NCBI RefSeq assembly: GCF_002355595.1
Contig: NZ_AP017422.1
Location: 186,001-250,000 of the forward strand
Length of the DNA: 64,000 nucleotides
Direction of reading: 5' to 3'
Origin: Filimonas lacunae
GTDB lineage: Bacteria > Bacteroidota > Bacteroidia > Chitinophagales > Chitinophagaceae
Below, one piece after another: positions 17,287 through 35,241 of this stretch (within the stretch, counting starts at the first letter, position 1; each line of letters opens with the position of its first letter). Made by a program: the position numbers and the translations under genes. Under the pieces are notes generated by a model that was not told the DNA's origin, made no database searches, and worked only from the letters and a program-made list of their open reading frames with translations.

Positions 17287-20200
17287 TTGATAACCCGTAA
17301 CTATAGTTTTCGGTTTTACTGGATAACCATGCTGGTATGCTGCCTGTTGGGCACACTACGTGCATATGGTCAAAAGACCGATTCTCTCCGCTTTCCTATA
17401 CAAGATAGGAGGGGCGATCCTTTTGCTGCCCCCAGGTCAAATCCATTTGATATAAAAGATACTTCTTACTTAAAACGTACTATAGAATACGACCCGGTAA
17501 CGAAGCAATATTATATTATAGAAAAGGTAGGTAACACCTACTATCGCAAACCTACTTATCTCACTTTTGATGAATTCTGGAAACTGCGCTCGCAGCAGGC
17601 AGAAAGAGATTATTTCAGTCAGCGTTCCCAAACCTTATTTGATCTGAATAAAAAGGTGCAACGTCCTAAGATGCGTTTGTATAACAAATTATTCGATCGC
17701 ATTTTTGGGGTGGACAGTGGTGGTTTAAAAGTAAATATTAAACCGCAGGGTAATGTGGATTTATTGTTGGGCTACCAGGGGCAAAGAATTGACAACCCCA
17801 CTTTACCGGAAAGAGCGCGTAAAACAGGTGGCTTTGATTTTGATATGAATGCCAACCTGAACGTGGTAGGTAACATTGGTAACAAACTGAAATTGCCCAT
17901 TAACTATAACACGCTCGCCAACTTTGATTTTGAAAACCAGATTAAGCTGGATTATAAAGGGATGGATGATGAGATTATCCGTAGCATTGAAGCGGGTAAC
18001 ATTTCTTTCCAGAGCAAGGGTACGTTAATGTCGAGTGTGCAAAGCTTATTTGGTGTAAAAACCTCCTTGCAGTTTGGACGCTTAGGCATAACTACAGCAT
18101 TGGCTAACGACCGTAGCCAGAAACAGTCACTTGCGTTACAAGGCGGTGGATTAAAGCAAACACTGAATAAAAAACTGGACGACTACGAAGAAAACAAAAA
18201 CTATCTGTTAGGCCAGTATTTCCGCAATACCTATAATAAAACCATGAGCAACCTGCCTGTAGTAAACAGCCAGGTGCAGATTTTGCGTATGGAGGTTTGG
18301 GTAACCAACCGTACCGGTGCTACTACAGAAACAAGAAACATTGTTGGTTTGATGGACCTGGGTGAGAGTGCTCCCTATAATCCCAATATTAATTCTTTAA
18401 CATCCAGTGCGCTGCCACAGAATGGCGCTAACGATTTATATGGTTTCCTGGCGGGGAATGAGAACAACCGTAACCCCAACCTTATCAGCACTATACTACA
18501 GTCGAGAAACTTTAAACCGGTGAATGACTTTGAAAAAACATTTGCCCGTAAGTTGAACAGCACTGAATATTACTTTAACCCGCAAGTGGGTTTTATTTGT
18601 TTAAATCAACAATTGCAGAGTGACCAGGTGCTGGGTGTGGCTTATCAATATACCTACAACGGCCGTGTGTACCAGGTGGGGGAATTTTCGCAGGATGTTG
18701 CGGTGGATTCTTCTAAAGGCATTCAAAAGGTATTGTTTGTAAAACTGTTGAAAGCTACTTCTGCCAGGATAAGTCTGCCTATCTGGAAGCTGGCAATGAG
18801 AAACGTATACTCACTGGATGTTACGGGTATTCAACGTCAGGATTTTAAACTGAACGTATTGTACCAGGATCCTAGCGGTGGTTATAAGCGCTACTTACCG
18901 GAAAGCTCTCCTGATGTAGAAGGTAAGTCGTTATTACGCATAGTGAACCTGGACCGTTTGAACAGCCGTAATGATCCTTTGCCTGATGGTGAGTTTGACT
19001 TTGTGGAAGGATTTACGGTATTATCTCAGCAGGGTAAAATCATCTTCCCGGTGCTGGAGCCTTTTGGGCGCGATCTGGATACACTGGCTTTTGCCGGACA
19101 ACCCCAGTCACTAAAAGACAAGTACGTATTCTACCAGTTATATGATTCTATTAAAGCCATTGCGCAAACCTATGCCAACGTGGACAGGTTTGTGGCGCAG
19201 GGATCGGTCAAGGGGAGTTCGTCATCAGAGATTTATTTAGGGGCGTTGAACGTTCCGCAAGGTTCGGTGAAAGTGACGGCGGGCGGGCAGTCGTTGATAG
19301 AGAACACGGATTTCGTAATTGATTATAACATGGGTACGCTGCGGGTGATTAACCAGGCTATTCTTACCTCGGGCGTTCCTGTAAACGTACAGTTTGAAAA
19401 TAATGCCACGTTTGGTTTGCAGCAGAGAAGCTTTATGGGGGTACGTCTTGATTATGCTGTTAACAAGCAGCTGGCTATCGGGGCCACCTATGAAAAATTG
19501 GCAGAGCGTCCATTCTTTACTAAAGTAAACTATGGCGAAGACCCGATCAACAACTCCATGTATGGTTTCGACTTTAACTATCGTTCGGAGTGGCCGGGCT
19601 TAACAAGAGCTTTGAACAAGTTGCCGTTTTATAATTCCACCACCATGAGTACTATCAATGCTTATGGTGAGATAGCTGCGTTAAAACCAGGGCATGCTGC
19701 ACAAATTGGTAGTGGTACACAAGGTGCAGTATATATAGATGACTTTGAAGGTAGCACCAGTAATATTGATATCCGCTTTCCCACCACTTCGTGGGTGATG
19801 GCTTCTACGCCATCGGGTAATGGTTTATTTCCGGAAGCTACTTTAACTGATTCTATCGCTTATGGTAAAAACAGGGCAAAGTTCGCCTGGTATAATATTG
19901 AACCTATTTTACAAGATGCCAGTAACGTGAACAACCCTTTACGAGGTAAAGGCTTTGATCTTACTGCTCCTTATGTACGTGCTGTATATACGAAAGAATT
20001 GTTTCCACAAAAAACAACCAATATTACGGATGTACAGTCAACAACTTTCGACCTGGCTTTTTATCCTAAAGAAAAAGGTCCATATAACTTTAGCAACACT
20101 ACCACTGATCTTACACCGGAAGGTGTTTTAAAAAATCCACAGCAGCGTTGGGGTGGTATCATGCGTAATATTGATCAAACCGATTTTGAAACAGGCAATA

Positions 20201-23200
20201 TAGGCTTTGTTGAATTTTGGGTTCAGGACCCTTTTATTAAGCAGCCGGGCAGACCTGGTGGTAAACTGTACATTAACCTGGGGGACATTAGTGAGGATGT
20301 ATTAAAAGATGGTCGTCGCTTTTATGAAAATGGGTTAAGCACGCCTACTCAAACTACGTCGGTAGATAGTACTTCTACCTGGGGACGCACTCCTGTTAAC
20401 CCCATTCAAATTACACAGGCATTTAGTAATGATCCTGCCGACAGGGCTTACCAGGATTTGGGTTTTGATGGTTTGGACGATGACGGAGAAAGAAGAAAAA
20501 GAGACGGATACCTGAGAGAGTTGAATCAAAATTTCCCTGGCGCCACCTTTGTTACCCAAGCTGTTGCCGACCCATCCAATGACAACTATGTTTGGTATCG
20601 TGATGCTGTTTATGACAGGGATAATATTGGTATTCTGGGCAGATATAAGAATTTTAATAAGCCACAGGGTAACTCTCCTGTAGTGTCGGGTGGTTCTTTA
20701 TTTTCTCCTGCTGCTACTTTATATCCTGATAATGAAGATTTGAACAGGGATAATACCTTAAATGAAAGCGAAGACTATTTTGAATACGGCGTTGATATAA
20801 AGCCTAACATGCAGGTTGGAACGAATTATATTACAGATAAAAAAACATTTATTCCGGATGGATCACAAACAGGGACAGAAGAAACCTGGTATCTGTTCCG
20901 TGTACCTATTGATGCATATACTGCCAAAATTGGCGATATCCCTGATTTTAAATCTATCCGCTTTATCCGTTTATATCTTACCGGTTTTGAAGATTCGGTG
21001 ATCATGCGTTTTGCGAAGTTTGACCTGGTGCGTAACCAATGGCGCCAGTTTAAGTATGATCTGGATACCACTGGTTCTTATAAGCCGGTTCAGAATAATG
21101 GTGCTACGTCTTTTGATGTGTTAGCTGTAAACCTGGAAGAAAACAGCACACGCCAGCCCATTCCTTATGTTATCCCACCAGGCATTGAGCGGGTGCAGAT
21201 GTTGAGCAACAATGGTGTAAACCTGTTGCAGAACGAGCAGAGTATGAGCTTGAAAGTGCGTAACCTTGCTAACGGCGATTCCAGGGCGGTGTTTAAAACC
21301 ATGAACCTGGACATGCGGCAGTATGGAAGAATAAACATGTTTATTCACGCGGAGTCGATGGTAGGACAAACTACAGTGAAAGATGGTGAGCTGAATGCGG
21401 TAATTCGTATAGGGCAAGACTTTTTAAACAACTACTACGAAATAAAAATTCCGCTTTACATCACCGCGCCGAATGTTACCGCTACTTCTGCGCAGGTGTG
21501 GCCTACCTTAAACGATCTGGACATTTCGCTACAAGACCTGGTGAAGCTGAAGCTGCGCAGGAATAATAATGGAGCACCAGTAAGTAGTATTTATAGGGAG
21601 GTGATCAATAATAAAACCTTCTCCATTATGGGTAATCCTAATCTGGGAGAGGTGAATGCCTTTTTGATAGCGGTGGAAAATGCGCTTGATCAAAACTCGG
21701 GACAATTAAGTGCAGAGGTATGGTTTAACGAATTGCGTTTATCTGAAATAGATGAGAAAGGTGGCTGGGCTGCTTTGGGCCGTGTGGATATGCAGTTGTC
21801 TGACCTGGGTACTTTATCTGTCTCTGCTAATACCTATTCTGCGGGTTGGGGAAGTATAGAACAAAGAACGAATGAAAGGGCGCGTGAAAGCATGATGCAG
21901 TTTGATGCTGCCCTGCAAATAGATGCGGGTAAGATGATGCCTAAGTCTATAGGTGTAACCATGCCTATTTATGCCAGCATTAACAGAACTACTTATACAC
22001 CAGAATACGATCCTTACAATCTGGATGTGAAGTTGAAGGATGTGCTTTCTACTACCAGGAATAAGGATTCGGTCAGAAATGTAGCACTGGATCAAACTAC
22101 TATTAAAACGCTGAACTTTACCAACGTTCGATTTGGTAACACGGGTAAAAAGCCTAAGCTATGGAGTATCAGCAACTTTGATTTCAGCTATTCTTATACC
22201 AGCACGGTGCAAACCAGCCCGTTAATTACCCGTAATAGTGTGATTAAACATCATGGAGGTTTTGGATATACTTATAATGGTACCGCCAAGTATATCACAC
22301 CATTTAAAAGGTGGATCAAAAGCAAGAGTGGCTGGTTCTCGCTGGTGAAAGATTTCAACTTTAACCTTACACCTTCACTGATTGGGTTTAGAACAGATAT
22401 TAACCGTCAGTTTGGTACTTATATTCCGCGCATCATCAGTACTTATGACAATAAGGTAGAGCGTGTAGATACTACCTATGACAAGTACTTTACTTTCGAC
22501 AGGTATTATAACCTGCGGTGGGATCTGGCCCGTTCCTTAAACCTCGACTTTAATGCCATCAACAAGGCTTATGTGGATGAACCTGCCGGACGTTTAGACA
22601 CGAAAGCAAAAAGAGATTCTGTACGGGATAACTTCTTTAAAGGTGGACGTAACACACTGTATCAACAAAAGGCGGTTGCCAGCTATACATTGCCATTGAG
22701 CAAACTGCCTTTGACCGATTGGATTAATGTGCGTTATAGCTACGCTGCCAATTACAACTGGATTGGCGCCAGTCGTTTGGCTTTAAACCTCGGTAACATT
22801 ATTGAAAACGGCCAGCAGAATACTTTAAATGGTGAGTTTGATTTTACCCGCTTATATAGCAAATCGCGTTTGTTAAGTGCTATTGATGGTGGCGGTGGTC
22901 CTAAGAAGGGCGTAAAACAACAAATACCTGTTAAGAAGTCGGCACCGGTTGCTAATAAAAATACAAAGGCGGTTGATCCAATGGCTGCTCTTCCATCGAA
23001 GGAAGATGTGGTAAAGGACCTGCATGGTAAGAAGAGAAGGATAGCACTGCGTAAATGGCGTAAGCAGAAGAAAGAAGCCAGAAGGGCTGCAAGGGCTATG
23101 AAGGGCAATAATGCTATGCCTGACCCAGGGCCGGTGGTGAAAACTGTGGGCCGGTTGGTAACAATGGTGAAAACGGTTTCTGTAAACTATACGGCTAACT

Positions 23201-24558
23201 ATAGTACCCGTATTCCGGGATATATGGATAGTACAAGAGTACTGGGCCAAAACTGGAGCAGTATGCAACCGGGAATGGACTTTGTGTTTGGTAAGCAGGT
23301 GAATTCTGCATGGCTGGATGAGAAAGCGAAGAAAGGCATCATTTCCAGGGACTCTACCTTTAACCTGATGTTCCGGCAAACATTTGAACAACGATTGGCA
23401 CTTACAGCCAGGGTAGAACCTATCAGGGAGTTTACCATTGACCTGAATATTGACAAGTCGTTTACAAAAGAATACTCTGAGTTGTTTAAAGACACTACCG
23501 GAACGGGTAATAACTTCGGACACTTAAGCCCATATGCTTCTGGTGGTTTCAGTGTTTCTTATATCGGGTTCAAAACCATGTTCCGCAAGTACAATCCTAA
23601 CGAGGTGTCCAGCACATTTAAAGATTTCCAGAATAACCGTCTGGTGGTTTCTGAAAGGCTGGCTAAAAGCAACCCTTACCAGGATGGTACTAAAACTTCG
23701 GATGGGTATTATACAGGTTACGGCAGGTATTCACAAGCAGTAATTATCCCGGCGTTTATTGCGGCATATAGTGGCAAAGACCCTAACAAGGTGGGGCTGA
23801 TTAAGCAAACCAATTCTAATATTAAGTCTAACCCATTCAGTGGCATTAAACCTTTGCCTAACTGGCGTGCTTCTTACTCGGGTTTAGCACGTATGCTGGG
23901 GCTGGGTAGCACTTTCTCTAATATCACTTTAACGCATGGTTATACCGGTACATTAAGTATGAACAGTTATACCAGCGCCTTAAACTTTAATGATCCGTTC
24001 CATTTAGGATCGCCCGGGTTTGTGGATACGGTGTCGGGCAACTTCGTTCCTTACTTCCTGGTGCCCAACCTTACTATCCAGGAATCGTTTAGTCCGTTAT
24101 TGGGTATTGATGTAACTACCGTTAACCAGTTAAACATAAAATTTGAGTTTATCAAAAGCCGTCAGTTGAGTATGAGCCTGGTTGATTACCAGTTGAGTGA
24201 AGTAAGAAGCACCCAGTGGAACTTTGGTTTCAGCTGGCGTAAGCGCGGACTGGTGCTGCCATTTAAAATACCAGGAGGAAAGGGGAGCAGAAAACTGGAT
24301 AACGACCTGAATTTAACGCTGGATCTTTCGATGCGGGATGATACACAAAGTAATACCACGCTCGACCAGAATGCCGCTTATAGCACAGGCGGGCAAAAGG
24401 TAATTAAGATACAGCCGGCTATTGACTATATCTTAAACAACCGCATTAATGTGAAGCTGTACTTCGATCAGCAGAAAACGATACCTTATATTTCTTCTTC
24501 CTCGCCTATTACCACAACCAGGGGAGGGTTGCAAATCAGAATATCGCTGGCTCAATAA
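17287..24558 (+). CDS. sprA: T9SS outer-membrane translocon SprA (copy 1)
   Basis: A 2,423-residue protein, the giant beta-barrel through which type 9 secretion cargo crosses the outer membrane; in gliding Bacteroidota it is also needed for motility. The first usable start is TTG, giving a signal-peptide-like N-terminus ending LLGTLRAYGQ. SprA_N-type sequence follows (KTDSLRFPIQDRRGDPF, then ANFDFENQIKLDYKGMDDEI), and the C-terminus ends IRISLAQ. A Lys/Arg-rich, low-complexity insert lies near residues 1865-1945. It follows ruvA and ends in a strong hairpin. A paralogue is encoded 3.4 kb downstream. Confidence 0.95.
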   Translation: MITRNYSFRFYWITMLVCCLLGTLRAYGQKTDSLRFPIQDRRGDPFAAPRSNPFDIKDTSYLKRTIEYDPVTKQYYIIEKVGNTYYRKPTYLTFDEFWKLRSQQAERDYFSQRSQTLFDLNKKVQRPKMRLYNKLFDRIFGVDSGGLKVNIKPQGNVDLLLGYQGQRIDNPTLPERARKTGGFDFDMNANLNVVGNIGNKLKLPINYNTLANFDFENQIKLDYKGMDDEIIRSIEAGNISFQSKGTLMSSVQSLFGVKTSLQFGRLGITTALANDRSQKQSLALQGGGLKQTLNKKLDDYEENKNYLLGQYFRNTYNKTMSNLPVVNSQVQILRMEVWVTNRTGATTETRNIVGLMDLGESAPYNPNINSLTSSALPQNGANDLYGFLAGNENNRNPNLISTILQSRNFKPVNDFEKTFARKLNSTEYYFNPQVGFICLNQQLQSDQVLGVAYQYTYNGRVYQVGEFSQDVAVDSSKGIQKVLFVKLLKATSARISLPIWKLAMRNVYSLDVTGIQRQDFKLNVLYQDPSGGYKRYLPESSPDVEGKSLLRIVNLDRLNSRNDPLPDGEFDFVEGFTVLSQQGKIIFPVLEPFGRDLDTLAFAGQPQSLKDKYVFYQLYDSIKAIAQTYANVDRFVAQGSVKGSSSSEIYLGALNVPQGSVKVTAGGQSLIENTDFVIDYNMGTLRVINQAILTSGVPVNVQFENNATFGLQQRSFMGVRLDYAVNKQLAIGATYEKLAERPFFTKVNYGEDPINNSMYGFDFNYRSEWPGLTRALNKLPFYNSTTMSTINAYGEIAALKPGHAAQIGSGTQGAVYIDDFEGSTSNIDIRFPTTSWVMASTPSGNGLFPEATLTDSIAYGKNRAKFAWYNIEPILQDASNVNNPLRGKGFDLTAPYVRAVYTKELFPQKTTNITDVQSTTFDLAFYPKEKGPYNFSNTTTDLTPEGVLKNPQQRWGGIMRNIDQTDFETGNIGFVEFWVQDPFIKQPGRPGGKLYINLGDISEDVLKDGRRFYENGLSTPTQTTSVDSTSTWGRTPVNPIQITQAFSNDPADRAYQDLGFDGLDDDGERRKRDGYLRELNQNFPGATFVTQAVADPSNDNYVWYRDAVYDRDNIGILGRYKNFNKPQGNSPVVSGGSLFSPAATLYPDNEDLNRDNTLNESEDYFEYGVDIKPNMQVGTNYITDKKTFIPDGSQTGTEETWYLFRVPIDAYTAKIGDIPDFKSIRFIRLYLTGFEDSVIMRFAKFDLVRNQWRQFKYDLDTTGSYKPVQNNGATSFDVLAVNLEENSTRQPIPYVIPPGIERVQMLSNNGVNLLQNEQSMSLKVRNLANGDSRAVFKTMNLDMRQYGRINMFIHAESMVGQTTVKDGELNAVIRIGQDFLNNYYEIKIPLYITAPNVTATSAQVWPTLNDLDISLQDLVKLKLRRNNNGAPVSSIYREVINNKTFSIMGNPNLGEVNAFLIAVENALDQNSGQLSAEVWFNELRLSEIDEKGGWAALGRVDMQLSDLGTLSVSANTYSAGWGSIEQRTNERARESMMQFDAALQIDAGKMMPKSIGVTMPIYASINRTTYTPEYDPYNLDVKLKDVLSTTRNKDSVRNVALDQTTIKTLNFTNVRFGNTGKKPKLWSISNFDFSYSYTSTVQTSPLITRNSVIKHHGGFGYTYNGTAKYITPFKRWIKSKSGWFSLVKDFNFNLTPSLIGFRTDINRQFGTYIPRIISTYDNKVERVDTTYDKYFTFDRYYNLRWDLARSLNLDFNAINKAYVDEPAGRLDTKAKRDSVRDNFFKGGRNTLYQQKAVASYTLPLSKLPLTDWINVRYSYAANYNWIGASRLALNLGNIIENGQQNTLNGEFDFTRLYSKSRLLSAIDGGGGPKKGVKQQIPVKKSAPVANKNTKAVDPMAALPSKEDVVKDLHGKKRRIALRKWRKQKKEARRAARAMKGNNAMPDPGPVVKTVGRLVTMVKTVSVNYTANYSTRIPGYMDSTRVLGQNWSSMQPGMDFVFGKQVNSAWLDEKAKKGIISRDSTFNLMFRQTFEQRLALTARVEPIREFTIDLNIDKSFTKEYSELFKDTTGTGNNFGHLSPYASGGFSVSYIGFKTMFRKYNPNEVSSTFKDFQNNRLVVSERLAKSNPYQDGTKTSDGYYTGYGRYSQAVIIPAFIAAYSGKDPNKVGLIKQTNSNIKSNPFSGIKPLPNWRASYSGLARMLGLGSTFSNITLTHGYTGTLSMNSYTSALNFNDPFHLGSPGFVDTVSGNFVPYFLVPNLTIQESFSPLLGIDVTTVNQLNIKFEFIKSRQLSMSLVDYQLSEVRSTQWNFGFSWRKRGLVLPFKIPGGKGSRKLDNDLNLTLDLSMRDDTQSNTTLDQNAAYSTGGQKVIKIQPAIDYILNNRINVKLYFDQQKTIPYISSSSPITTTRGGLQIRISLAQ

Positions 24559-24569
24559 GAGCTAAAAAA

Positions 24570-24599
24570 CAAAAGCCTGATCGAATGATCAGGCTTTTG
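24570..24599. terminator. bidirectional terminator between sprA copy 1 and the response regulator
   Basis: CAAAAGCCTGATC (24570-24582) and GATCAGGCTTTTG (24587-24599) form a 13-bp perfect stem with a GAAT loop. On the minus strand a T-rich tract follows (plus-strand AAAAAA near 24564-24569). The right arm overlaps the last codons and stop of the response-regulator gene, so terminator and coding sequence share bases. Confidence 0.85.
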
Positions 24600-24990
24600 C
24601 TATTATAGAGGCTAACTTATCTTTTGTTATGGGCTTTACTATGTAGCTGGTTACTCTTCTGTATTGGTGTGCCAGCGCTATATCTTCATTGGCGGGTGAA
24701 GAGCTGATAATGTGTATATCAGGATTGTATTCGTGCGCAAAACTGAGTAATTCCAGGGCTTCTAAAAATTGCCATCCATTCATGTAGGGCATATTAATGT
24801 CCACTAACAACACATCAGGCAACTCATGAACAGGAATAGTACAGCTTTTGAAAAAATCAATGGCTTCCTCACCATTAAAAAACTGCAACACACTTTTTCC
24901 AGGTTGGGTTCTCTCAAATGTCTTCTTCAGAATTAACTGATACACCTGATCGTCATCAATGATGCCCAGGCGGTATGGTTTCTCAAGCAT
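24589..24990 (-). CDS. single-domain response regulator
   Basis: A 133-residue CheY-like receiver with no output domain. The acidic pocket is D12-D14 in IIDDDQ, the phosphoacceptor is D64 in LLVDINMPYMNGW, with S96-S98 and K119 (VKPITKDK) completing the active site. It starts 30 bases after the histidine-kinase stop, so the pair is a two-component system whose output is presumably protein-protein interaction or a phosphorelay step. The 3' end forms one arm of a terminator. Confidence 0.9.
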   Translation of the reverse strand: MLEKPYRLGIIDDDQVYQLILKKTFERTQPGKSVLQFFNGEEAIDFFKSCTIPVHELPDVLLVDINMPYMNGWQFLEALELLSFAHEYNPDIHIISSSPANEDIALAHQYRRVTSYIVKPITKDKLASIIAKA

Positions 24991-25020: not shown

Positions 25021-26925
25021 TTATACTGCAATAGTAAAGATAGAACCGTTTATTCCATCACTTTCCCACGTTATTTTTCCGCCACAGGCCTCTATCTGAC
25101 TTTTTAGCAGAAATAAACCCAGTCCTCTGCCGTGGTAGCCTTTGTGAAATATCCTTTTGTATTTGAATACTTCTTCTTTATGCCTGTTCATATCTATACC
25201 TAAACCATTGTCTATAAACTGAATTACCACCTGATCTTTTACCTGTGCCGAGGATATATGTATGGTAGGCGCCTGGCCTTCTTTCCGGAAAGTGAGGGCG
25301 TTACTAATGAGTGTTTGGAATATGTTTTCGAGATATACCAGCGGAAAGCTGATCACTTCTATTTCAAAATCGCAGGTAATGGTGGCATGCGTGGCATGAA
25401 TAGCCGGGTGAAACAGTAACAATTTGCCTTGTAATACCTGAAACAGGTTACAGCTGGTGTATACTATGTCTTTGTTCAGCTGAATTTCTATCACCTCTTT
25501 TAAATCGTTGAGGGTTTGTATTACAAGCTCGGAGGTGCCCTTGATTTTAGAAAGTAATTCTTTGGCTTCCTCTATATTTTCACAATCGTCCAAAAAGTCC
25601 ACAGCGCTGATCAGCGAGGTGGCCGGGCCGCGCAGGTTGTGGCTGATAATGCTGTTGAACTCTGTTATGTTGTCAATATGATATTGCAGGTTTTTATTCG
25701 CTTTTTTAAAGGCGATGTTTTTGCTTTCCAGTTCAGTGATCAGGTGTTTGTTTGCCGTGATATCTACCAGTTGACTGGTAAAGTAAGCGGGTTGATTATT
25801 TTTCCATATCAAGGATGCGGATAGCAATATCCATATAATGCTACCGTCTTTTTTATAATACCGCTTTTCCATGCGGTAGTTCTCTATTTCATGCGATAAC
25901 AGCTGTTTTACATAAGCCATATCTACGGCTATGTCATCAGGATGGGTCATATCCATGAAGTTGAGTCGCCGCATTTCTTCTTTGGTATACCCGAAAATGT
26001 CGCAAAGCGATTGATTCACGTCCAGCCATTGGCCATTCAAATCAACAAAGGCCATTCCTATAGAAGAAAAGTCGAAGGCGTTTTTAAATATTTTGCGGCT
26101 TTCTTCCAGTAGCTCCTTGTTCTTTTTAAACTCGGTGAAGTTTTGTGAGGTAACAATCACTTTTTCTACCGTATCATCAGCCCCGGTAACCACTGTGCCC
26201 CTGGTTAGAAATACTTTCTCGTTATTTTGGGCAGTAACAATGTCCTGATAATGGGTGTGGAAATTATTGTCCTTAATGCAATGTTTCAATGTTTCTTCCT
26301 GCTGCACTCTTACCTCTGGTGGAAAAAATGCGAGGTATTGCTCTATGGTGGTAATGTCCTCTTGTTCGCCCAGATCCAGCAGCAGACGCATACCTTCCGA
26401 AGTTTTGATGTTGTTGGTGGTAGTATCCCATTCAAAGTGCCCGAACTGGCCTACTATTTCTGCATTACGTAGCTGTTCGTTTTTCAGTTGCAGCTCTTTT
26501 TCTGCCTTTTTACGCATCGCTACTTCTGCTTCCAGTGCTTCGGGGCTTTGCAATGAAAAATAATAAGGCAGTAGCCTTATCATATAAAAAATGGTGATCC
26601 AGCTTATAATGGCGGTGATAGCCCTTACTACTGCATTAAGGCGATAGGCGGGATACCAGAAGGTTACAGCATCTATAAAGTGTGTGGTGCCACAAGCCAG
26701 GATAAAAGAGGCAAACAGGAAGTACAGGCGGATAAAACGCTGGTGTTTGCGGCGGGTTAAGTATTTTATGATAATGGCAGGTATGGTAAAATAAGCACCC
26801 CATATTAACAGGTCACTGACTATAAAAAGCCAGCCATGAAAAGAGGTCCACTTGCCACAATGCCAACGTGGTGGCCAGTCGCTGGTATCCAATAGTTTAA
26901 ATAGGAAATCAAGGATTCCGGGCAT
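25021..26925 (-). CDS. PAS sensor histidine kinase with ethylene-receptor-like N-terminal membrane domain
   Basis: A 634-residue kinase. Residues 30-120 hold three hydrophobic helices resembling the ethylene-binding domain of plant ETR1: SDLLIWGAYFTIP and LACGTTHFID. Asp38, Tyr45, Cys78 and His82 match ETR1 Asp25, Tyr32, Cys65 and His69 with a constant offset of 13; Cys and His are the Cu(I) ligands in ETR1. A short coiled-coil linker (about 127-158) leads to two PAS domains (about 160-265 and 280-395). The kinase core follows, with the H-box IISHNLRGP (His about 429), N-box LISNALTF, IDNGLGID and GRGLGLFLLK. It is paired with the receiver gene downstream. Confidence 0.9.
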   Translation of the reverse strand: MPGILDFLFKLLDTSDWPPRWHCGKWTSFHGWLFIVSDLLIWGAYFTIPAIIIKYLTRRKHQRFIRLYFLFASFILACGTTHFIDAVTFWYPAYRLNAVVRAITAIISWITIFYMIRLLPYYFSLQSPEALEAEVAMRKKAEKELQLKNEQLRNAEIVGQFGHFEWDTTTNNIKTSEGMRLLLDLGEQEDITTIEQYLAFFPPEVRVQQEETLKHCIKDNNFHTHYQDIVTAQNNEKVFLTRGTVVTGADDTVEKVIVTSQNFTEFKKNKELLEESRKIFKNAFDFSSIGMAFVDLNGQWLDVNQSLCDIFGYTKEEMRRLNFMDMTHPDDIAVDMAYVKQLLSHEIENYRMEKRYYKKDGSIIWILLSASLIWKNNQPAYFTSQLVDITANKHLITELESKNIAFKKANKNLQYHIDNITEFNSIISHNLRGPATSLISAVDFLDDCENIEEAKELLSKIKGTSELVIQTLNDLKEVIEIQLNKDIVYTSCNLFQVLQGKLLLFHPAIHATHATITCDFEIEVISFPLVYLENIFQTLISNALTFRKEGQAPTIHISSAQVKDQVVIQFIDNGLGIDMNRHKEEVFKYKRIFHKGYHGRGLGLFLLKSQIEACGGKITWESDGINGSIFTIAV

Positions 26926-26979: not shown

Positions 26980-27744
26980 TCAGCTGTTTTTATGGGTGAA
27001 AAAGGAATTGGCCTGGGCGGTACAGGTTACCACCAGGTCGTTAATGCACACATGTGCGGGCAGGTTGGCAGCATAAAAAACAATATCGGCCACATCGGCT
27101 GCATGTAGTGGTTCGTAGCCATCGTATACTGCTTTTGCCTTGCTGGCATCCCCTTTAAAACGAACATCGGAAAATTCTGTTTCAGCAGCGCCCGGATGTA
27201 CAGCAGTTACTTTAATACTATGTGGTAATAAATCTATCCGTTGCGATTTGCTGATGGCATCTACGGCATGTTTGCTAGCGCAGTATACATTCCCGTTAGG
27301 ATATACTTCTTTGCCTGCAGTAGAGCCTATGTTGATGATATGTCCTTTGCCGTTAGCTATCATGTAAGGTACTACCGCTTTGGAAACATATAGTAAACCC
27401 TTTACGTTGGTGTTGATCATGGTATCCCAGTCGTCCAGTGAGGCGGCGTCAAAAGTGTCACGTCCTAATGCCAGGCCGGCGTTGTTTACCAGCACATCCA
27501 CTTGTTGCCATTCTGCGGGCAATTGCTGTAATTGTGTAGTTGTAGCTTCCCGGTCCTGTACATCAAAGGTCAGGGGTAGTATGTTTACCTTGTATTGGTT
27601 TTGCAAATGGCTGGCTAATTCTTCCAGTTTCTCTTTCCTGCGTCCTGTAATAATACAGTTCCATCCTGCTGCTGCAAATTTCTCTGCTATCGCTTTTCCA
27701 AACCCTGAGGTGGCCCCGGTAACTAAAATTATTTTGCCTGACAT
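26980..27744 (-). CDS. SDR-family NADP-dependent oxidoreductase (YdfG-like)
   Basis: A 254-residue classical short-chain dehydrogenase. The cofactor motif is TGATSGFGKAIA, and GRR at residues 34-36 (in IITGRRKEKL) favours NADP. NNAG is at 87-90, and the catalytic residues are Ser141, Tyr154 and Lys158 (YCASK). The stretches INIGSTAG and FSDVRFKGD are shared with E. coli YdfG, which reduces 3-hydroxy-acid and serine substrates and malonic semialdehyde, so a similar small hydroxy acid is a reasonable guess. It is 54 bases upstream of the histidine kinase and on the same strand, so the three genes may be co-transcribed. Confidence 0.87.
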   Translation of the reverse strand: MSGKIILVTGATSGFGKAIAEKFAAAGWNCIITGRRKEKLEELASHLQNQYKVNILPLTFDVQDREATTTQLQQLPAEWQQVDVLVNNAGLALGRDTFDAASLDDWDTMINTNVKGLLYVSKAVVPYMIANGKGHIINIGSTAGKEVYPNGNVYCASKHAVDAISKSQRIDLLPHSIKVTAVHPGAAETEFSDVRFKGDASKAKAVYDGYEPLHAADVADIVFYAANLPAHVCINDLVVTCTAQANSFFTHKNS

Positions 27745-27984: not shown

Positions 27985-30900
27985 GTGCCGTTAAAAGGTT
28001 GTGTTCGTGTTATATACTGCCTGGTGTTTACCTGGTTGCTAACTGTTATAAAGGGCTATGCTCAAAAAACAGACTCGCTCCGTTTTCCTATTGAAGACAG
28101 GAGGGGAGATCCTTTTACTTATCAGCCAAAGAATCATTTTGATATAGCGGATACTGCTTACCTGAAACGCACAGTGGAATATGATCCTGTAACGCATCGC
28201 TATTATATAGTGGAGAAGATTGGTAACAGCTATTACCGCAAGCCCACTTACTTAACGTATGAAGAGTTTTGGAAGCTACAGAATGCAAAGGCCGAAAAGG
28301 ATTACTTTATGGTAAGGGCGCATACATTGGACGACCTGAATAAAAAGGTAAAGCGGCCAAAGATGCAGCTTTATCATAAGCTGTTTGACAGGATGTTTGG
28401 GCTTGACTCCAATAATATGAAAGTGGACATAAGGCCACAAGGCACTGTGGATCTGGCATTGGGGTACATGGGGCAAAGAATTGATAATCCTTCTTTAAGT
28501 GAAGCAGCACGTAAAACTGGTGGGTTTGATTTTGATATGAATGCTAACCTTAGCATGATTGCCAACATTGGTAATAAGTTAAAGCTGCCTATTAACTATA
28601 ACACACTGGCCAATTTTGATTTTGAAAACCAGTTGAAACTGGATTATAAAGGGATGGATGATGAAATTATCCGGAGCATTGAAGCAGGTAATATTTCCTT
28701 TCAAACACGCAGCTCGCTGGTAAGTGGGGTGCAAAGTTTGTTTGGGGTGAAAACGCAATTGCAGTTTGGCAGGCTGGGTATTACTGCGGCTATTGCCAAT
28801 CAACGTTCTGAAAAGAAGTCGGCTACACTGGCTGGGGGTGGCGCTACTACTACGCTTTCTAAAAAGCTGGATGATTATGACGAGAACCGAAACTTCTTAC
28901 TGGCGCAATACTTCCGCAATAATTTCAATAAAGCCATGGGGAGTTTGCCTGTTGTAAACAGCCAGATTAAAATAACCCGTATGGAGGTGTGGGTAACCAA
29001 CCGCACGGGCTCTACTACCAATGCCCGGTATGTAGCTGGGCTGGCCGATCTGGGGGAGCCGGAGCCTGCCAATAGTGCCAATACTTCTTTATCCACCAGT
29101 GCTTTGCCGCAAAACGGCGCGAACGATTTATATGCTTATGCTACCAGTAACGAAACGTATCGCAACTCTAACTACATCACCAGTTTTTTAAAGGCAAGAG
29201 GGCTAACACAGGTAAATGATTTTGAAAAGATATATGCCCGTAAGCTTACCAGCACAGAATACTCTTACAACGCCAAGGTGGGGTTTTTATGTTTGAACGG
29301 GCAATTGCAGTCCAGCGATGCATTAGCAGTGGCTTTTCAATATACCTATAATGGTAAGGTGTACCAGGTGGGGGAGTTTTCGGAAGATGTTACCGTAGAT
29401 TCTACTAGCGGTATTCAAAAGGTATTGTTTTTGAAATTATTAAAAGGTACCTCGCAAAGGGTAGCGCTGCCTATGTGGCACCTGATGATGAAGAATGTAT
29501 ATTCTGTAGGGGTTACGGGCATTGATTCGGCCGATTTTACTTTCAATGTATTATACCGCGAAGCCAGTGGTGGTGATAAAATTTATCTTCCTGAAAGTGC
29601 TACAGCAGTAGAAGGAAAGTCGCTGTTATCTATATTGAAACTGGACAGGTTAAACAGTACCCAAAATAGTATACCTGATGGCATGTTCGATTATGTGAAT
29701 GGCTATACGATTCTACCTGCGCAGGGCAAGATCATCTTCCCGGTGCTGGAGCCGTTTGGTAAAGATCTGGATACACTTGCTTTTGCGGGTATGCCTGCTT
29801 CTGTAAAAGCTAAGTATGTGTATTACGCTTTGTATGATTCTATTAAAGCAGTAGCGCAAACCTATGCCAATCTTAACCGCTTTGTGGCTTCGGGGTCGGT
29901 AAAAGGCACCAGTAGCTCTTCTTTATCGCTGGGGGCTTTTAATATTCCGTCAGGTTCAGTAACGGTGCGGGCAGGGGCTAATACCTTAAAAGAGAATGTA
30001 GACTATACAGTGGATTATAGCCTGGGTACGGTAACTATCATTAACCAGGCCTTACTGGCTTCAGGCACTACGGTCACGGTAGATTATGAAAGCTCCAGCT
30101 ATGCTATGCAGCAGCGTAATTTTATGGGCGTGCGACTGGATTATAAAGCCAGTGACAAACTGGCGCTGGGGGCTACGTTTGAGCATTTGGGCACTACACC
30201 GTTTTATAGCAAAGTGAATGTGGGCGATGATCCTATCAGCAACAGTATTTATGGTGTTGATTTTACTTATGCTTCCCAATCGCCGGGTATTACAAGGGCG
30301 TTAAATAAACTGCTACCTTTTTATCACTCTACTACCAACAGTGCTATCAATGCTTCGGGTGAATTTGCTTATCTAAAGCCGGGGCATGCTTCACAAATTG
30401 GCTCAGGCACTTCCGGTGCTGTTTATATTGATGATTTTGAAAGCGCCAGCAGCAGTATTGATATTCGTTATCCGGCCACTAACTGGGCGCTGGCTTCTAC
30501 GCCTTCGGGCAACAGCTTATTTCCGGAAGCGGAGTTAAGTGATTCTATTGATTACAATAGAAACCGGGCAAAGCTGGCCTGGTATACGATTGAATCGGTT
30601 TTACAAAACACCAGTTACAGCACCAACCCTTTACGGAAAAACCTGGCCGTGTTAAGCGATCCGCGTATGCGTGCGGTATATACCAGTGAGTTGTATCCCG
30701 ACCGTACCACTACCGTTACTGATGTGCAGCTGGCAACGCTGGACCTTGCTTATTATCCCGAAGAGAAAGGGCCTTATAACTTTGAAGCACGTACTTCGGA
30801 GTTAACAGCAGAGGGAAGATTTCGCAACCCTAAAAGCAAATGGGGTGGTATTATGCGCAGCATAGATCAAAGTGATTTTGAAACGGCCAATATTGCCTAT

Positions 30901-33900
30901 GTGGAATTCTGGATGCAGGACCCTTTTATTAAAAAGCCCGCCAGCACTGGTGGTAAACTGCATATTAACCTGGGTAGTGTAAGTGAAGATATTTTAAAAG
31001 ATGGCAAGCATTTTTATGAAAACGGCTTAAGCACCCCTACGCAAAACACAACGGTAGATAGCAGTGGTACCTGGGGTAAAGTACCTGTAAATCCCGTACA
31101 GCAAACGCAGGCATTTAGTAACGAAACCAGCGATCGTGCTTACCAGGATGTGGGCTATGATGGCTTGAATAATGAAGAGGAAAGAAGAAAGCGTGGTAAT
31201 TACCTGGGCAACCTATTGCGTAATTTCCAATCCACTTCTACCATCTATCAACGTGCCTATAACGATCCCAGTGATGATGATTATGTATGGTACCGGGATG
31301 ACCGGTTCACGGAAAACTCCGACATCCTGGTGCGTTATAAAAACTATAATAACCCGCAAGGCAACTCGCCGGTAGCCAATAGCTCTTCTACATCCACTAC
31401 TACAGCAGCTACTACTTACCCGGATAATGAAGATTTGAACAGGGATAATGTAATGAACGAAACAGAAGCCTATTATGAGTATGCCATTGATCTTACACCG
31501 GGTAGTCTTGTGGTAGGTAGCAATTACATTACAGATAAAAGAACGGTAACGCCTACTTTAGTGAATGGAAGCAGCAGCACCGAAAACTGGTACCTGTTTC
31601 GCATTCCTATAGAAGGATATACCAGTGCTGTTGGTGGTATATCCGATTTCAAGTCTATACAGTTTTCGCGTATGTATTTATCAGGCTTTGAAGATTCGGT
31701 GGTGTTGCGTTTTGGTGCTTTAAACCTGGTACGCAGTTCCTGGCGTTCGTTTACTTATAACCTCGATACTACCGGTTCTTACACGCAGCTTTCCACTACT
31801 TCCACACTGGATATTACCTCGGTGGGGCTGGAAGATAACAGTGCCCGCACACCTATCCCCTATAAGTTGCCGCCGGATATTGCGCGTGTGCAAACGTTAA
31901 GCAGCACCAATACTACGGTGCTGGAAGATGAGCGGTCTATGAGCATGAAAATATCCGGACTAACAGATGGCGAAGCCCGTGCTGTATTTAAAACGATGAG
32001 CCTGGATGTGCGTAAGTATGGCAAGCTGAGCATGTATGTGCATGCCGAAGGGGTAAGTGGACAAACCGCTATTGCCAATAAAGATTTAAACCTGGTAGTG
32101 CGTATTGGGCAGGATTTTTTATCTAACTACTATGAAATAAAAATACCGCTTACCATGACTTCGCTAACGAGCAACGCCACTGCGGAAACCATCTGGCCCA
32201 CTGCCAATAATCTCGATTTTTCATTACAGCAACTGGTGAGTTTAAAAGTGGAGCGTAATGATAACGGCGTAAACACCGGCGTTATTTACCGCAAGGAGAT
32301 AGATGGGAAAACTTATTCCGTAATGGGCAATCCCAACCTGGGCGATATAGGTGGTGTATTGATAGCAGTGGAAAACCCCAAGGGTGGCAATACGGCTGCA
32401 TTGAGTACGGAGGTGTGGGTGGATGAGTTACGTTTATCTGAGATAGATGAGCATGGTGCCTGGGCGGCTATAGGCAGGGTTGATATGCAGTTGGCCGATT
32501 TGGGTACTTTCTCGCTGGCGGGTAGTACCTATTCGCAGGGATGGGGCACTGTGGAACAAAGCTTAAGCCAGCGATCTATTAACAGCACCAGGCAGGTAGA
32601 TGCTGCCTTGCAGATAGATGCCGGTAAGCTATTGCCTTCACAGGCAGGTATCACCATGCCTATGTATGCAGGATATAGCAAAACAGTGGCTACTCCTGAA
32701 TACGATCCGTACAACCTTGATATCAAACTCAGTTCACAGTTAAAGAAAACCAGCAAATCTAAACGGGATTCTATTTTAAATAATGCGCGCGATATCTCTA
32801 CCATGCAAACACTTACGTTTACCAATGTACGTTTTGGTAAAGTGCCGGCTAAGCCTAAGCTATGGAGCCTGAGTAATTTTGATTTTACGTTTGCCTATAC
32901 CAGAACATCGGCAACCAGTTCGGTGATATCGTTGAATGACATGCGTAAATACCGGGGTGGTTTTGGATATACTTTTAACGGCACGGCTAAATATATACAG
33001 CCTTTTAAAGGTATGAAGTGGAAAACGGGGTGGCTGCAATTAATAAGAGATTTTAATATCAATCTAAATCCTTCACTCATCAGCTTTCGAACGGATGTTA
33101 ACCGACAAATGGGCATGTATACCCCCCGTATTGTAAACACTTCTACCAATACTATTACACGTGTAGATACTACCTATAATAAGAAATTCACGTTCGACAG
33201 GTACTATAATCTGCGGTGGGATCTTTCCCGTTCGCTTAACATTGATTTCAGCGCTACCAACAGGGCTATTATAGATGAGCCGGAAGGAAAGCTGGATACC
33301 AAACAAAAGCGCGACAGTGTATGGAAAACCTTCTGGAAAGGCGGGCGGCCTTTATCGTACCAACAAAAACTATCTGCATCCTATACATTACCCTTAGCTA
33401 AGTTTCCGCTAACCAACTGGATTACTACACGGTATACCTATGGCGCTTCTTACGCTTACACTTCGGCCAGTTTATCGGCCAAGTACCTGGGTAATACATT
33501 GCAAAACAGCCTGGACCATAACGTTACTGCCGAGCTGGACTTTGCCCGTTTGTATAGTAAATGGAAATGGCTGGCCCGTGTAAGCCAGGGTAGCACGCCT
33601 GTAAAGCAAAATAAACCGGTAAAGACCACCGCAACTATACCAGCTAAAGCAATTAAACCAGTGGCATTGCCGCCTTTACCGGAAAGGGATGAGGTGATCA
33701 AAGACCTTCATGGAAAAGCAAAGCGAAAGGCATTGCGCCAATGGCGGCATGCTAAAAGAGAACGTCGCAGACAGGAAAGGGAAAAGGCGGCTGCAACGGC
33801 CCAGCCTGCCGAAATAACCAAAGCGGTTACCTCCCTGGTTACCATGGTAAAGCGGGCTTCTATCAGCTATACCACCAATGTGAACAGTTATGTGCCGGGC

Positions 33901-35241
33901 TATATGGATAGCTCGCAGTTTCTGGGACAAAACTGGAAAAGCATGCAGCCGGGGTTGGATTATATATTTGGTAAGCAGCCCAATGCACAATGGATGGAGC
34001 AAAAGGCGCGCCTGGGTTTGCTCAGCGCCGATTCTACTTTTAATGATTACTTTCAGCAGGGCTTTTCGCAACAGTTTAATATGGCGGCTACTTTGCAACC
34101 ATTAAAGGATTTTACGATAGAAGTAACTGTGCAAAAAACGTTCTCTAAAACCTATAGCGAACTGTTTAAAGATACTACGGGATCAGGCCTGCACTTTTCA
34201 CATTTAAGCGGCACAGCCAACGGCGGTTTTAGTGTATCGTTTATCAGTTTTCAAACCCTGTTTCGTAAAAGCAGCCCATCGCAGGTGTCAGAAACATTTA
34301 AAACCTTTCAGAATAACCGTTTAATTGTGTCGTCGCGTATGGCGCGTTTAAATGCTTATCAGGATGGTACTAAAACGGTGGATGGATATTATACCGGGTA
34401 TGGCCGTTATTCGCAAAACGTGCTGATACCAGCGTTCGTGGCAGCCTACACCAATAAGGATGCCCATAAAATAGCTTTGCTCAATGAATCCAACACAGGC
34501 ATTACTTCCAATCCTTTTTCGGGTATAAAGCCTTTACCTAACTGGAACGCTACCTACTCGGGCCTTACCCGTATACCGGCGCTGAGCAGCCTATTCAGCA
34601 GCATTGTTTTTACACATGCCTATTCCGGCACTTTAAGTATGAACAGTTATTCCAGTGATCTTACATTTAACGATCCGCTGCATTTGGGTACACCGGGTTT
34701 TATTGATAGCACCTCCGGTAACTTTGTGCCTTATTACATTGTGCCTAACATTACTATTCAAGAGCAGTTCAGCCCGCTGATAGGCATAGATGTAACCACG
34801 TTAAAACAGCTGAATGTGCACCTGAAGTACAACAGAAGCCGGCAGTTGAGTTTAAGTCTGAGCGATTACCAGTTGAGTGAGGTGCAAAGCAGTGGCTGGG
34901 ATTTTGGCTTAAGCTGGAGAACGCATGGCTTAGATCTGCCTTTTACCCTGCCGTTTATGAAAGCAGGGCAAAAGAGACTGCAAAACGATTTGGGTATTAC
35001 TGTTGATTTCAGTTACCGGCGTGATGCACAAAGCACCAGTGTACTGGATGAAAACGTTACTTATGTTACCGGTGGACAAAGAGTCATCAAACTATCTCCT
35101 TCTATTGACTACACATTGAATAAACGCATTAATATCTCGTTCTATTTCGACAGGCAAAAGAGCATTCCCTATGTGTCTACTTCTTCGCCCATAACAGTTA
35201 CTAAAGGAGGTGTGAAAGTGCGGATAGCCTTAACAAAGTAA
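27985..35241 (+). CDS. sprA: T9SS outer-membrane translocon SprA (copy 2)
   Basis: A 2,418-residue paralogue of the protein at 17.3-24.6 kb, colinear over its whole length. It shares YAQKTDSLRFPIEDRRGDPF, the NYNTLANFDFENQLKLDYKG block, the YIDDFE segment and the C-terminal YFDRQKSIPYVSTSSPITV. It starts at GTG with a signal-peptide-like leader (residues 1-26). There is no stop or frameshift, so it appears functional. Like copy 1 it holds a Lys/Arg-rich insert (about residues 1870-1942). It differs from copy 1 throughout, so the duplication is old. No obvious -7 element was found in its 240-bp upstream gap. It is convergent with a T9SS cargo gene 3 bases away. Confidence 0.93.
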   Translation: MPLKGCVRVIYCLVFTWLLTVIKGYAQKTDSLRFPIEDRRGDPFTYQPKNHFDIADTAYLKRTVEYDPVTHRYYIVEKIGNSYYRKPTYLTYEEFWKLQNAKAEKDYFMVRAHTLDDLNKKVKRPKMQLYHKLFDRMFGLDSNNMKVDIRPQGTVDLALGYMGQRIDNPSLSEAARKTGGFDFDMNANLSMIANIGNKLKLPINYNTLANFDFENQLKLDYKGMDDEIIRSIEAGNISFQTRSSLVSGVQSLFGVKTQLQFGRLGITAAIANQRSEKKSATLAGGGATTTLSKKLDDYDENRNFLLAQYFRNNFNKAMGSLPVVNSQIKITRMEVWVTNRTGSTTNARYVAGLADLGEPEPANSANTSLSTSALPQNGANDLYAYATSNETYRNSNYITSFLKARGLTQVNDFEKIYARKLTSTEYSYNAKVGFLCLNGQLQSSDALAVAFQYTYNGKVYQVGEFSEDVTVDSTSGIQKVLFLKLLKGTSQRVALPMWHLMMKNVYSVGVTGIDSADFTFNVLYREASGGDKIYLPESATAVEGKSLLSILKLDRLNSTQNSIPDGMFDYVNGYTILPAQGKIIFPVLEPFGKDLDTLAFAGMPASVKAKYVYYALYDSIKAVAQTYANLNRFVASGSVKGTSSSSLSLGAFNIPSGSVTVRAGANTLKENVDYTVDYSLGTVTIINQALLASGTTVTVDYESSSYAMQQRNFMGVRLDYKASDKLALGATFEHLGTTPFYSKVNVGDDPISNSIYGVDFTYASQSPGITRALNKLLPFYHSTTNSAINASGEFAYLKPGHASQIGSGTSGAVYIDDFESASSSIDIRYPATNWALASTPSGNSLFPEAELSDSIDYNRNRAKLAWYTIESVLQNTSYSTNPLRKNLAVLSDPRMRAVYTSELYPDRTTTVTDVQLATLDLAYYPEEKGPYNFEARTSELTAEGRFRNPKSKWGGIMRSIDQSDFETANIAYVEFWMQDPFIKKPASTGGKLHINLGSVSEDILKDGKHFYENGLSTPTQNTTVDSSGTWGKVPVNPVQQTQAFSNETSDRAYQDVGYDGLNNEEERRKRGNYLGNLLRNFQSTSTIYQRAYNDPSDDDYVWYRDDRFTENSDILVRYKNYNNPQGNSPVANSSSTSTTTAATTYPDNEDLNRDNVMNETEAYYEYAIDLTPGSLVVGSNYITDKRTVTPTLVNGSSSTENWYLFRIPIEGYTSAVGGISDFKSIQFSRMYLSGFEDSVVLRFGALNLVRSSWRSFTYNLDTTGSYTQLSTTSTLDITSVGLEDNSARTPIPYKLPPDIARVQTLSSTNTTVLEDERSMSMKISGLTDGEARAVFKTMSLDVRKYGKLSMYVHAEGVSGQTAIANKDLNLVVRIGQDFLSNYYEIKIPLTMTSLTSNATAETIWPTANNLDFSLQQLVSLKVERNDNGVNTGVIYRKEIDGKTYSVMGNPNLGDIGGVLIAVENPKGGNTAALSTEVWVDELRLSEIDEHGAWAAIGRVDMQLADLGTFSLAGSTYSQGWGTVEQSLSQRSINSTRQVDAALQIDAGKLLPSQAGITMPMYAGYSKTVATPEYDPYNLDIKLSSQLKKTSKSKRDSILNNARDISTMQTLTFTNVRFGKVPAKPKLWSLSNFDFTFAYTRTSATSSVISLNDMRKYRGGFGYTFNGTAKYIQPFKGMKWKTGWLQLIRDFNINLNPSLISFRTDVNRQMGMYTPRIVNTSTNTITRVDTTYNKKFTFDRYYNLRWDLSRSLNIDFSATNRAIIDEPEGKLDTKQKRDSVWKTFWKGGRPLSYQQKLSASYTLPLAKFPLTNWITTRYTYGASYAYTSASLSAKYLGNTLQNSLDHNVTAELDFARLYSKWKWLARVSQGSTPVKQNKPVKTTATIPAKAIKPVALPPLPERDEVIKDLHGKAKRKALRQWRHAKRERRRQEREKAAATAQPAEITKAVTSLVTMVKRASISYTTNVNSYVPGYMDSSQFLGQNWKSMQPGLDYIFGKQPNAQWMEQKARLGLLSADSTFNDYFQQGFSQQFNMAATLQPLKDFTIEVTVQKTFSKTYSELFKDTTGSGLHFSHLSGTANGGFSVSFISFQTLFRKSSPSQVSETFKTFQNNRLIVSSRMARLNAYQDGTKTVDGYYTGYGRYSQNVLIPAFVAAYTNKDAHKIALLNESNTGITSNPFSGIKPLPNWNATYSGLTRIPALSSLFSSIVFTHAYSGTLSMNSYSSDLTFNDPLHLGTPGFIDSTSGNFVPYYIVPNITIQEQFSPLIGIDVTTLKQLNVHLKYNRSRQLSLSLSDYQLSEVQSSGWDFGLSWRTHGLDLPFTLPFMKAGQKRLQNDLGITVDFSYRRDAQSTSVLDENVTYVTGGQRVIKLSPSIDYTLNKRINISFYFDRQKSIPYVSTSSPITVTKGGVKVRIALTK

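Follow-up and report, generated by a model that had tools for sequence, protein, structure and literature searches.

A sensor histidine kinase of Filimonas lacunae carries an ETR1-type membrane domain and is probably a bacterial receptor kinase of the ETR1 type, which would hold Cu(I) by Cys78 and His82, bind ethylene or a similarly small olefin, and pass its signal by phosphorelay to a lone receiver. The gene occupies positions 25021..26925 on the minus strand of the window, that is, the whole stretch of 64,000 nucleotides that was analysed, and its product of 634 amino acids is arranged as ETR1_N-PAS-PAS-HisKA-HATPase according to Pfam, the open reading frame and a structural model. As far as sequence goes, the protein is supported as a further ETR1-type receptor, in a phylum, the Bacteroidota, for which the literature searched holds no description of one; reviews beyond that reach may mention one. 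The earlier note on this DNA gave coordinates that agree with the list of open reading frames, without naming the strand. Its central claim, that a histidine kinase bears an ETR1-type domain, stands, whereas the meaning that it gave to the position between two sprA genes does not; the lone receiver gene downstream, a lysine-to-arginine change and the two PAS domains were omitted from it.

The assignment of the membrane domain is based on a profile match, residues, predicted helices and relatives, which all agree. Specifically, the profile search that the earlier note had proposed returned PF25487 (ETR1_N) for residues 30-124 (26554..26838, minus strand) at 102.9 bits, where the curated cut-off is 27, and with an E value of 1.2e-29, and the missing match that the note had named as speaking against its claim did not occur. 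BLASTP of the kinase against ETR1 gave 27% identity across 95 residues with an E value of 3e-10, and the two E values together place the likeness to ETR1 beyond chance. The domain is the only one of its kind found by Pfam in the F. lacunae genome (one contig of 7,814,405 bp). Both motifs pointed out beforehand, SDLLIWGAYFTIP and LACGTTHFID, are present in the N-terminus of the kinase.

We take the seven ethylene-binding residues of ETR1 to be D25, Y32, I35, P36, I62, C65 and H69. On this basis, the alignment keeps seven of seven at an offset of 13: Asp38 (26812..26814), Tyr45 (26791..26793), Cys78 (26692..26694) and His82 (26680..26682), all on the minus strand, correspond to ETR1 Asp25, Tyr32, Cys65 and His69, as had been claimed, and Ile48, Pro49 and Ile75 correspond to ETR1 Ile35, Pro36 and Ile62. 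The accessible part of PMC11819568 gives seven as the number of residues needed for ethylene binding in ETR1; Cys78 and His82 are the presumed Cu(I) ligands, a role taken for the former from the same part of that source and for the latter from the portion of the ETR1 literature consulted. Past a gap of 3 residues in the second loop the offset drops to 10, and ETR1 Lys91 is replaced by Arg101 (26623..26625, minus strand). Asp38 keeps a presumed partner in Arg101, and the replacement of the lysine was counted against the receptor reading. According to the accessible part of PMC11819568, modelling pairs ETR1 Lys91 with Asp25 and gives it a role in output, and a conserved lysine is also described in the part of PMC13012798 available.

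Two AlphaFold2 models place three predicted membrane helices at residues 28-58, 65-87 and 94-125 and at 29-58, 65-90 and 94-123, respectively. In the full-length model these are followed by a long helix, predicted as a coiled coil, at residues 128-158 (26452..26544, minus strand), two PAS-like folds, a DHp helix pair and an ATPase fold. Cys78 and His82 lie in the same predicted helix, one turn apart, and would therefore share a face. Judging from the helix limits, Asp38, His82 and Arg101 would be found toward the outer helix ends, with Cys78 one turn deeper. In addition, helices 1 and 2 are joined by a strongly basic loop, which by the positive-inside rule would be cytoplasmic and leave the N-terminus outside. 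Three structural results were counted against the receptor reading, namely the moderate confidence of the models (pLDDT 76 and 77, pTM 0.60 and 0.38), the lack of a significant match in a Foldseek search of the model against the PDB, and the lack of a match when a profile of the ethylene-binding domain was compared with solved chains.

The remainder of the protein bears out the histidine kinase that had been claimed. After ETR1_N, Pfam gives the order PAS_3 (in two stretches), PAS_9 and HATPase_c, and no GAF domain was found among families up to E 0.1, with PAS in its place. The first PAS fold, at residues about 162-262 (26140..26442), is placed by the model, the second PAS_3 stretch being without a position; the second PAS domain covers residues 290-391 (25753..26058; PAS_9 E 2.1e-13, PAS_3 E 1.2e-19), and HATPase_c covers residues 532-632 with the C-terminus (25027..25332; E 1.3e-12), all on the minus strand. 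HisKA is sub-threshold, with 21.6 bits against a cut-off of 26.9, and was counted against the receptor reading. His429 (25639..25641, minus strand), the presumed phospho-acceptor, occupies an H-box column conserved in at least 90% of 24 relatives, and Asn542, Asp572, Gly574, Gly576 and Gly603 complete the transmitter residues present in the alignment with these relatives.

Directly downstream, on the same strand, a gene for a receiver without output domain starts 30 bp past the kinase (24589..24990, minus strand). Its product of 133 amino acids matches PF00072 (E 4.3e-14) and nothing else, with Asp64 at 24799-24801, and is the presumed partner of the kinase. Among 80 related loci recruited, 77 hold at least 600 bp beyond the kinase, and 40 of these have a receiver reading frame of fewer than 230 amino acids that starts within 500 bp; the 37 without one were counted against the receptor reading. 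Receivers 48-71% identical to that of the window occur in just four of the 40 loci (F. zeae, Flavitalea sp. BT771, a Chitinophagaceae MAG and a Puia MAG), where the kinases are also the closest (43-61%), and the remaining 36 receivers are only 22-39% identical to it. A quickly built tree of the ethylene-binding domain only places the same four loci with the window (SH-aLRT 95, few columns), and kinase and receiver identities mirror each other with a Spearman coefficient of 0.54 over 820 non-independent pairs. From these patterns, the receiver gene seems to have been inherited together with the kinase. In the 40 relatives with a receiver, the ethylene-binding domain is the best-kept part, with 51-79% identity against 24-61% for the kinase, hence it would appear that different transmitters were swapped in while the sensor stayed constant. 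Comparison of F. lacunae with F. zeae gives the domain a dN of 0.14 and a dS of 1.9, which speaks for constraint, this dS being near or beyond saturation. As a separate observation, the receivers adjoining the ethylene-binding-domain kinases in L078 (8316-8933) and L080 (5955-6581) carry a LuxR-type DNA-binding domain; some members of the group would thus act on transcription, and these receivers are possible handles for finding target genes.

The genomic surroundings are informative on the history of the pair. Both flanking genes encode SprA, as the earlier note said (PF14349, E 3.1e-165 and 4.1e-167); they lie at 17287-24558 and 27985-35241 on the strand opposite to the kinase and are 61% identical to each other. 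Upstream of the kinase, at a distance of 54 bp, is a gene for an SDR oxidoreductase (26980..27744, minus strand; PF00106 E 1.8e-57). In F. zeae the order is fabH, ruvA, sprA, receiver, kinase, SDR and PKD protein, and the corresponding order in a third genome of the genus, G001, is fabH, ruvA, sprA, SDR and PKD protein, with neither kinase nor receiver in between. The SDR gene, present in G001 without the kinase, is a native neighbour and, since the pair sits between sprA and SDR in F. zeae and is missing in G001, gene order indicates that kinase and receiver are a two-gene unit gained or lost at this place. Of the three Filimonas genomes, one was found to have a second sprA gene, the sole sprA found in F. 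zeae lies beside the pair, and G001 has one sprA and no pair. In other words, the sprA sandwich is incidental by synteny, and the link to type 9 secretion is rejected. Control of gliding or type 9 secretion by the kinase, exerted via the neighbouring sprA genes, is suggested by position only and deserves hardly any credence, as the pair is missing beside sprA in G001, F. zeae and G001 have one sprA each, the sprA genes of the window are on the opposite strand, and SprA occurs at one of 80 related loci, namely that of F. zeae; on the same synteny, sprA was rejected as a partner.

Column counts were made on 127 of 132 unique domains; L035, L147, L049, L148 and L149 were omitted for gaps or for having no Pro at key columns, L148 and L149 being weak matches (27.5 and 22.3 bits) that are also without the His. 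The domain of the window is present twice among the 127 (L001, L133), and L126 and L127 are near-copies. Cys78 is kept in 124 and His82 in 117 of the 127 domains. At the ETR1 Lys91 column, Arg is found in 91 domains, Lys in 23, Leu in 10, Asp in 2 and Gln in 1, counts that are skewed to Arg because the 80 loci were recruited with Arg-type sequence patterns. For the Asp38/Arg101 columns, 113 domains have acid and base, 8 neither, 5 the acid only and 1 the base only (Fisher p 8e-9 by rows); when kinship is considered, this amounts to 3 to 4 independent changes, with the acid following in about 2 of 3, and is not significant. The pattern would fit a salt bridge and goes no further. Leu occupies the Lys91 position in ten domains, in six of which the Asp is also Asn or Ser (L006, L010, L018, L128, L144, L155), the acid being kept in L011, L142, L143 and L145; in ETR1, the Asp-to-Asn change lowers ethylene affinity about 100-fold, according to the available part of PMC13012798. 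A further feature is the outer motif PPRWHCGxW, with His22-Cys23 at 26857..26862 (minus strand) and the Cys present in 113 of the 127 domains. Both Cys23 and His82 are kept in 112 domains, neither in 9, His only in 5 and Cys only in 1 (p 1e-9 by rows), an association that on the tree goes back to one event or two and is not significant. The outer Cys23 may help to load copper.

The His ligand is missing in 10 of the 127 domains, replaced by Tyr in 6, Phe in 3 and Gln in 1, and three of the ten are also without the ligand Cys. The ten proteins are about 350 amino acids long and end past the DHp region, and Pfam, with all ten checked, finds in each ETR1_N and HisKA and no HATPase; the absence of the ATPase was taken from Pfam, a motif search having missed a real ATPase in L013 (Pfam 80 bits). 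Nine of the ten genes (L113, L126, L127, L163, L164, L166, L167, L168, L169) follow feoB on the same strand at a distance of 93-488 bp, and for the tenth, L165, no feoB was found in the 14 kb read. FeoB was confirmed by TIGR00437 for two (528 and 525 bits), the others being 71-80% identical to one of these. No feoB is seen at any of the 77 His-bearing loci, of which 67 extend 2.5 kb or more upstream of the kinase. A second upstream gene, which in L113 encodes a T9SS-sorted protein, is retained at eight of these His-less loci. On the tree, two changes, possibly one, would account for the His-less rows, so that they probably represent one old locus kept in synteny rather than a repeated invention. 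The strict rule joining loss of His, loss of the ATPase and feoB is weakened by L107, which is of the ATPase-less build, yet keeps His82 and has no feoB nearby. The oddity is that a receptor fold deprived of metal ligand and kinase still stands beside a metal transporter. A speculative and rather improbable idea is that the ETR1 fold has split in Bacteroidota into a copper-site branch, to which the window belongs, with Arg for Lys91 and the outer Cys, which would sense a small olefin, and a feoB branch, without copper ligand and ATPase, which would be a membrane protein devoid of kinase and linked with the uptake of ferrous iron. Should both branches share one ancestral role, this may be metal sensing, and ethylene sensing a later use of the site.

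How the kinase would work can be outlined as follows. In an inner-membrane dimer, Cys78 and His82 would hold Cu(I), to which ethylene or an olefin of similarly small size would bind, thereby shifting the membrane helices. The Asp38-Arg101 pair, like ETR1 Asp25-Lys91, would couple this shift to the long helix 128-158, from which the signal would run through the two PAS domains to the transmitter, and phosphate would be handed on by His429 to Asp64 in the lone receiver; the latter, being without output domain, must act via another protein. Onto the observed domain, its residues, the order of the parts and the genetic pairing with the receiver, the roles of copper, ethylene and coupling would be carried over from ETR1, SynEtr1 and AzoEtr1.

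An alternative that we consider unlikely is that of a Cu(I) sensor, in which the signal would be copper supply or redox state, with the binding of ethylene as a side property at most. The copper ligands are the best-kept feature of the domains, and the extra outer Cys, so common among them, is missing in nine of the ten His-less ones. To our knowledge, this outer Cys is as such absent from plant ethylene receptors. Moreover, Chitinophagaceae like this freshwater isolate are without an evident ethylene source of their own, and DIOX_N, which marks the plant-type ethylene-forming dioxygenase and is a partial test only, is absent from the F. lacunae genome. A mere copper site, however, would not need Asp38, Tyr45, Ile48, Pro49 and Ile75, all of which are kept; there are no copper genes in the neighbourhood, and the association of Cys23 with His82 reduces to those few tree events. 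AzoEtr1 and SynEtr1, in addition, respond to ethylene, according to the accessible part of PMC11819568.

Two further explanations concern what the domain perceives. The Cu(I) sites of ETR1 also take other small ligands, such as olefins, CO, isonitriles and a terpenoid gas, and it is conceivable, with a distinctly low probability, that the domain binds copper and senses another small neutral ligand of this kind; the exchange of Lys91 for Arg could affect the shape of the site, but no particular ligand is indicated by the sequence. That the membrane domain is now an anchor only, with the PAS domains sensing, appears very improbable: the ten ligand-less and ATPase-less relatives indicate that the fold can lose its site, and the PAS domains vary more among relatives and could carry the signal, whereas the ethylene-binding domain is the best-kept part and its seven residues are intact. 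Reception of ethylene or a similarly small olefin through Cu(I) is the reading that we prefer.

Among the genomes sampled, ETR1_N passes its cut-off in 27 of 195 for the family, in 21 of 395 for the phylum and in 15 of 395 for the class, the samples partly overlapping. Ethylene-binding domains or working receptors have been described in cyanobacteria and proteobacteria in the available parts of PMC7700396 and PMC11819568, and the available part of PMC10452086 contains the term 'ethylene-binding domain' but names Bacteroidetes for ACC deaminase only. F. lacunae was isolated from freshwater, and F. endophytica and F. zeae from plant root (PMC4945802); the freshwater, non-plant origin was counted against the ethylene-receptor reading. 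The F. lacunae genome encodes a P-ATPase of the Cu(I) type (TIGR01511 at 494 bits, above the cut-off of 397), hence the organism can handle copper. The domain was not found in phage records and occurs in 18 plasmid records, including 7 of Azospirillum and 4 of cyanobacteria. On plasmid p2 of Novosphingobium sp. ES2-1 (L159, 2495-3962), typed as conjugative, a kinase with this domain has an overlapping response regulator gene and lies near a cas9 gene. The F. lacunae protein is a well-preserved candidate with a receiver in Bacteroidota and one root isolate, F. zeae, carries the pair, which raises the question whether root Bacteroidota sense plant ethylene.

Compared with known systems, the kinase has in common with plant ETR1 the ETR1_N domain, the seven residues and the Asp with a basic partner, at the 27% identity over 95 residues given above and with Arg instead of Lys91; the plant protein has a GAF domain and a fused receiver, according to the portion of the literature consulted, in contrast to PAS domains and a separate receiver in the window. 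The His-less, feoB-linked proteins of Chitinophagaceae (L113, L022 and others), built as ethylene-binding domain, PAS and DHp, share ETR1_N above cut-off in ten of ten and differ by the lack of His82 and HATPase, by the loss of Cys23 in nine of ten and by the adjoining feoB in nine of ten. SynEtr1 (slr1212) of Synechocystis is likewise a bacterial ethylene receptor kinase with a phosphorelay, in the accessible parts of PMC11819568 and PMC7700396, and doubles as a light receptor; it is likened to the window by description, not by sequence. A close parallel in build is AzoEtr1 with AzoRRetr1 of Azospirillum brasilense, for which the accessible part of PMC11819568 gives the same succession of ethylene-binding domain, PAS and histidine kinase, then a lone receiver gene, whose product has 135 amino acids against 133 in the window. 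The AzoEtr1 domain is 37.6% identical to that of the window across 91% of the query, with the same seven binding residues and a shared outer H-x-C/HC motif (L157 domain), but with Lys98 where the window has Arg101; AzoEtr1 has one PAS domain and the window kinase two, and its gene overlaps that of the receiver, whereas those of the window are 30 bp apart. Residues 1-130 of AzoEtr1 bind ethylene when expressed in yeast, as reported in the same part of that source, so that binding is measured there and predicted for the window. The receptor reading rests mainly on AzoEtr1, which is bacterial, similar in build and of measured ethylene binding (PMC11819568, in the part accessible).
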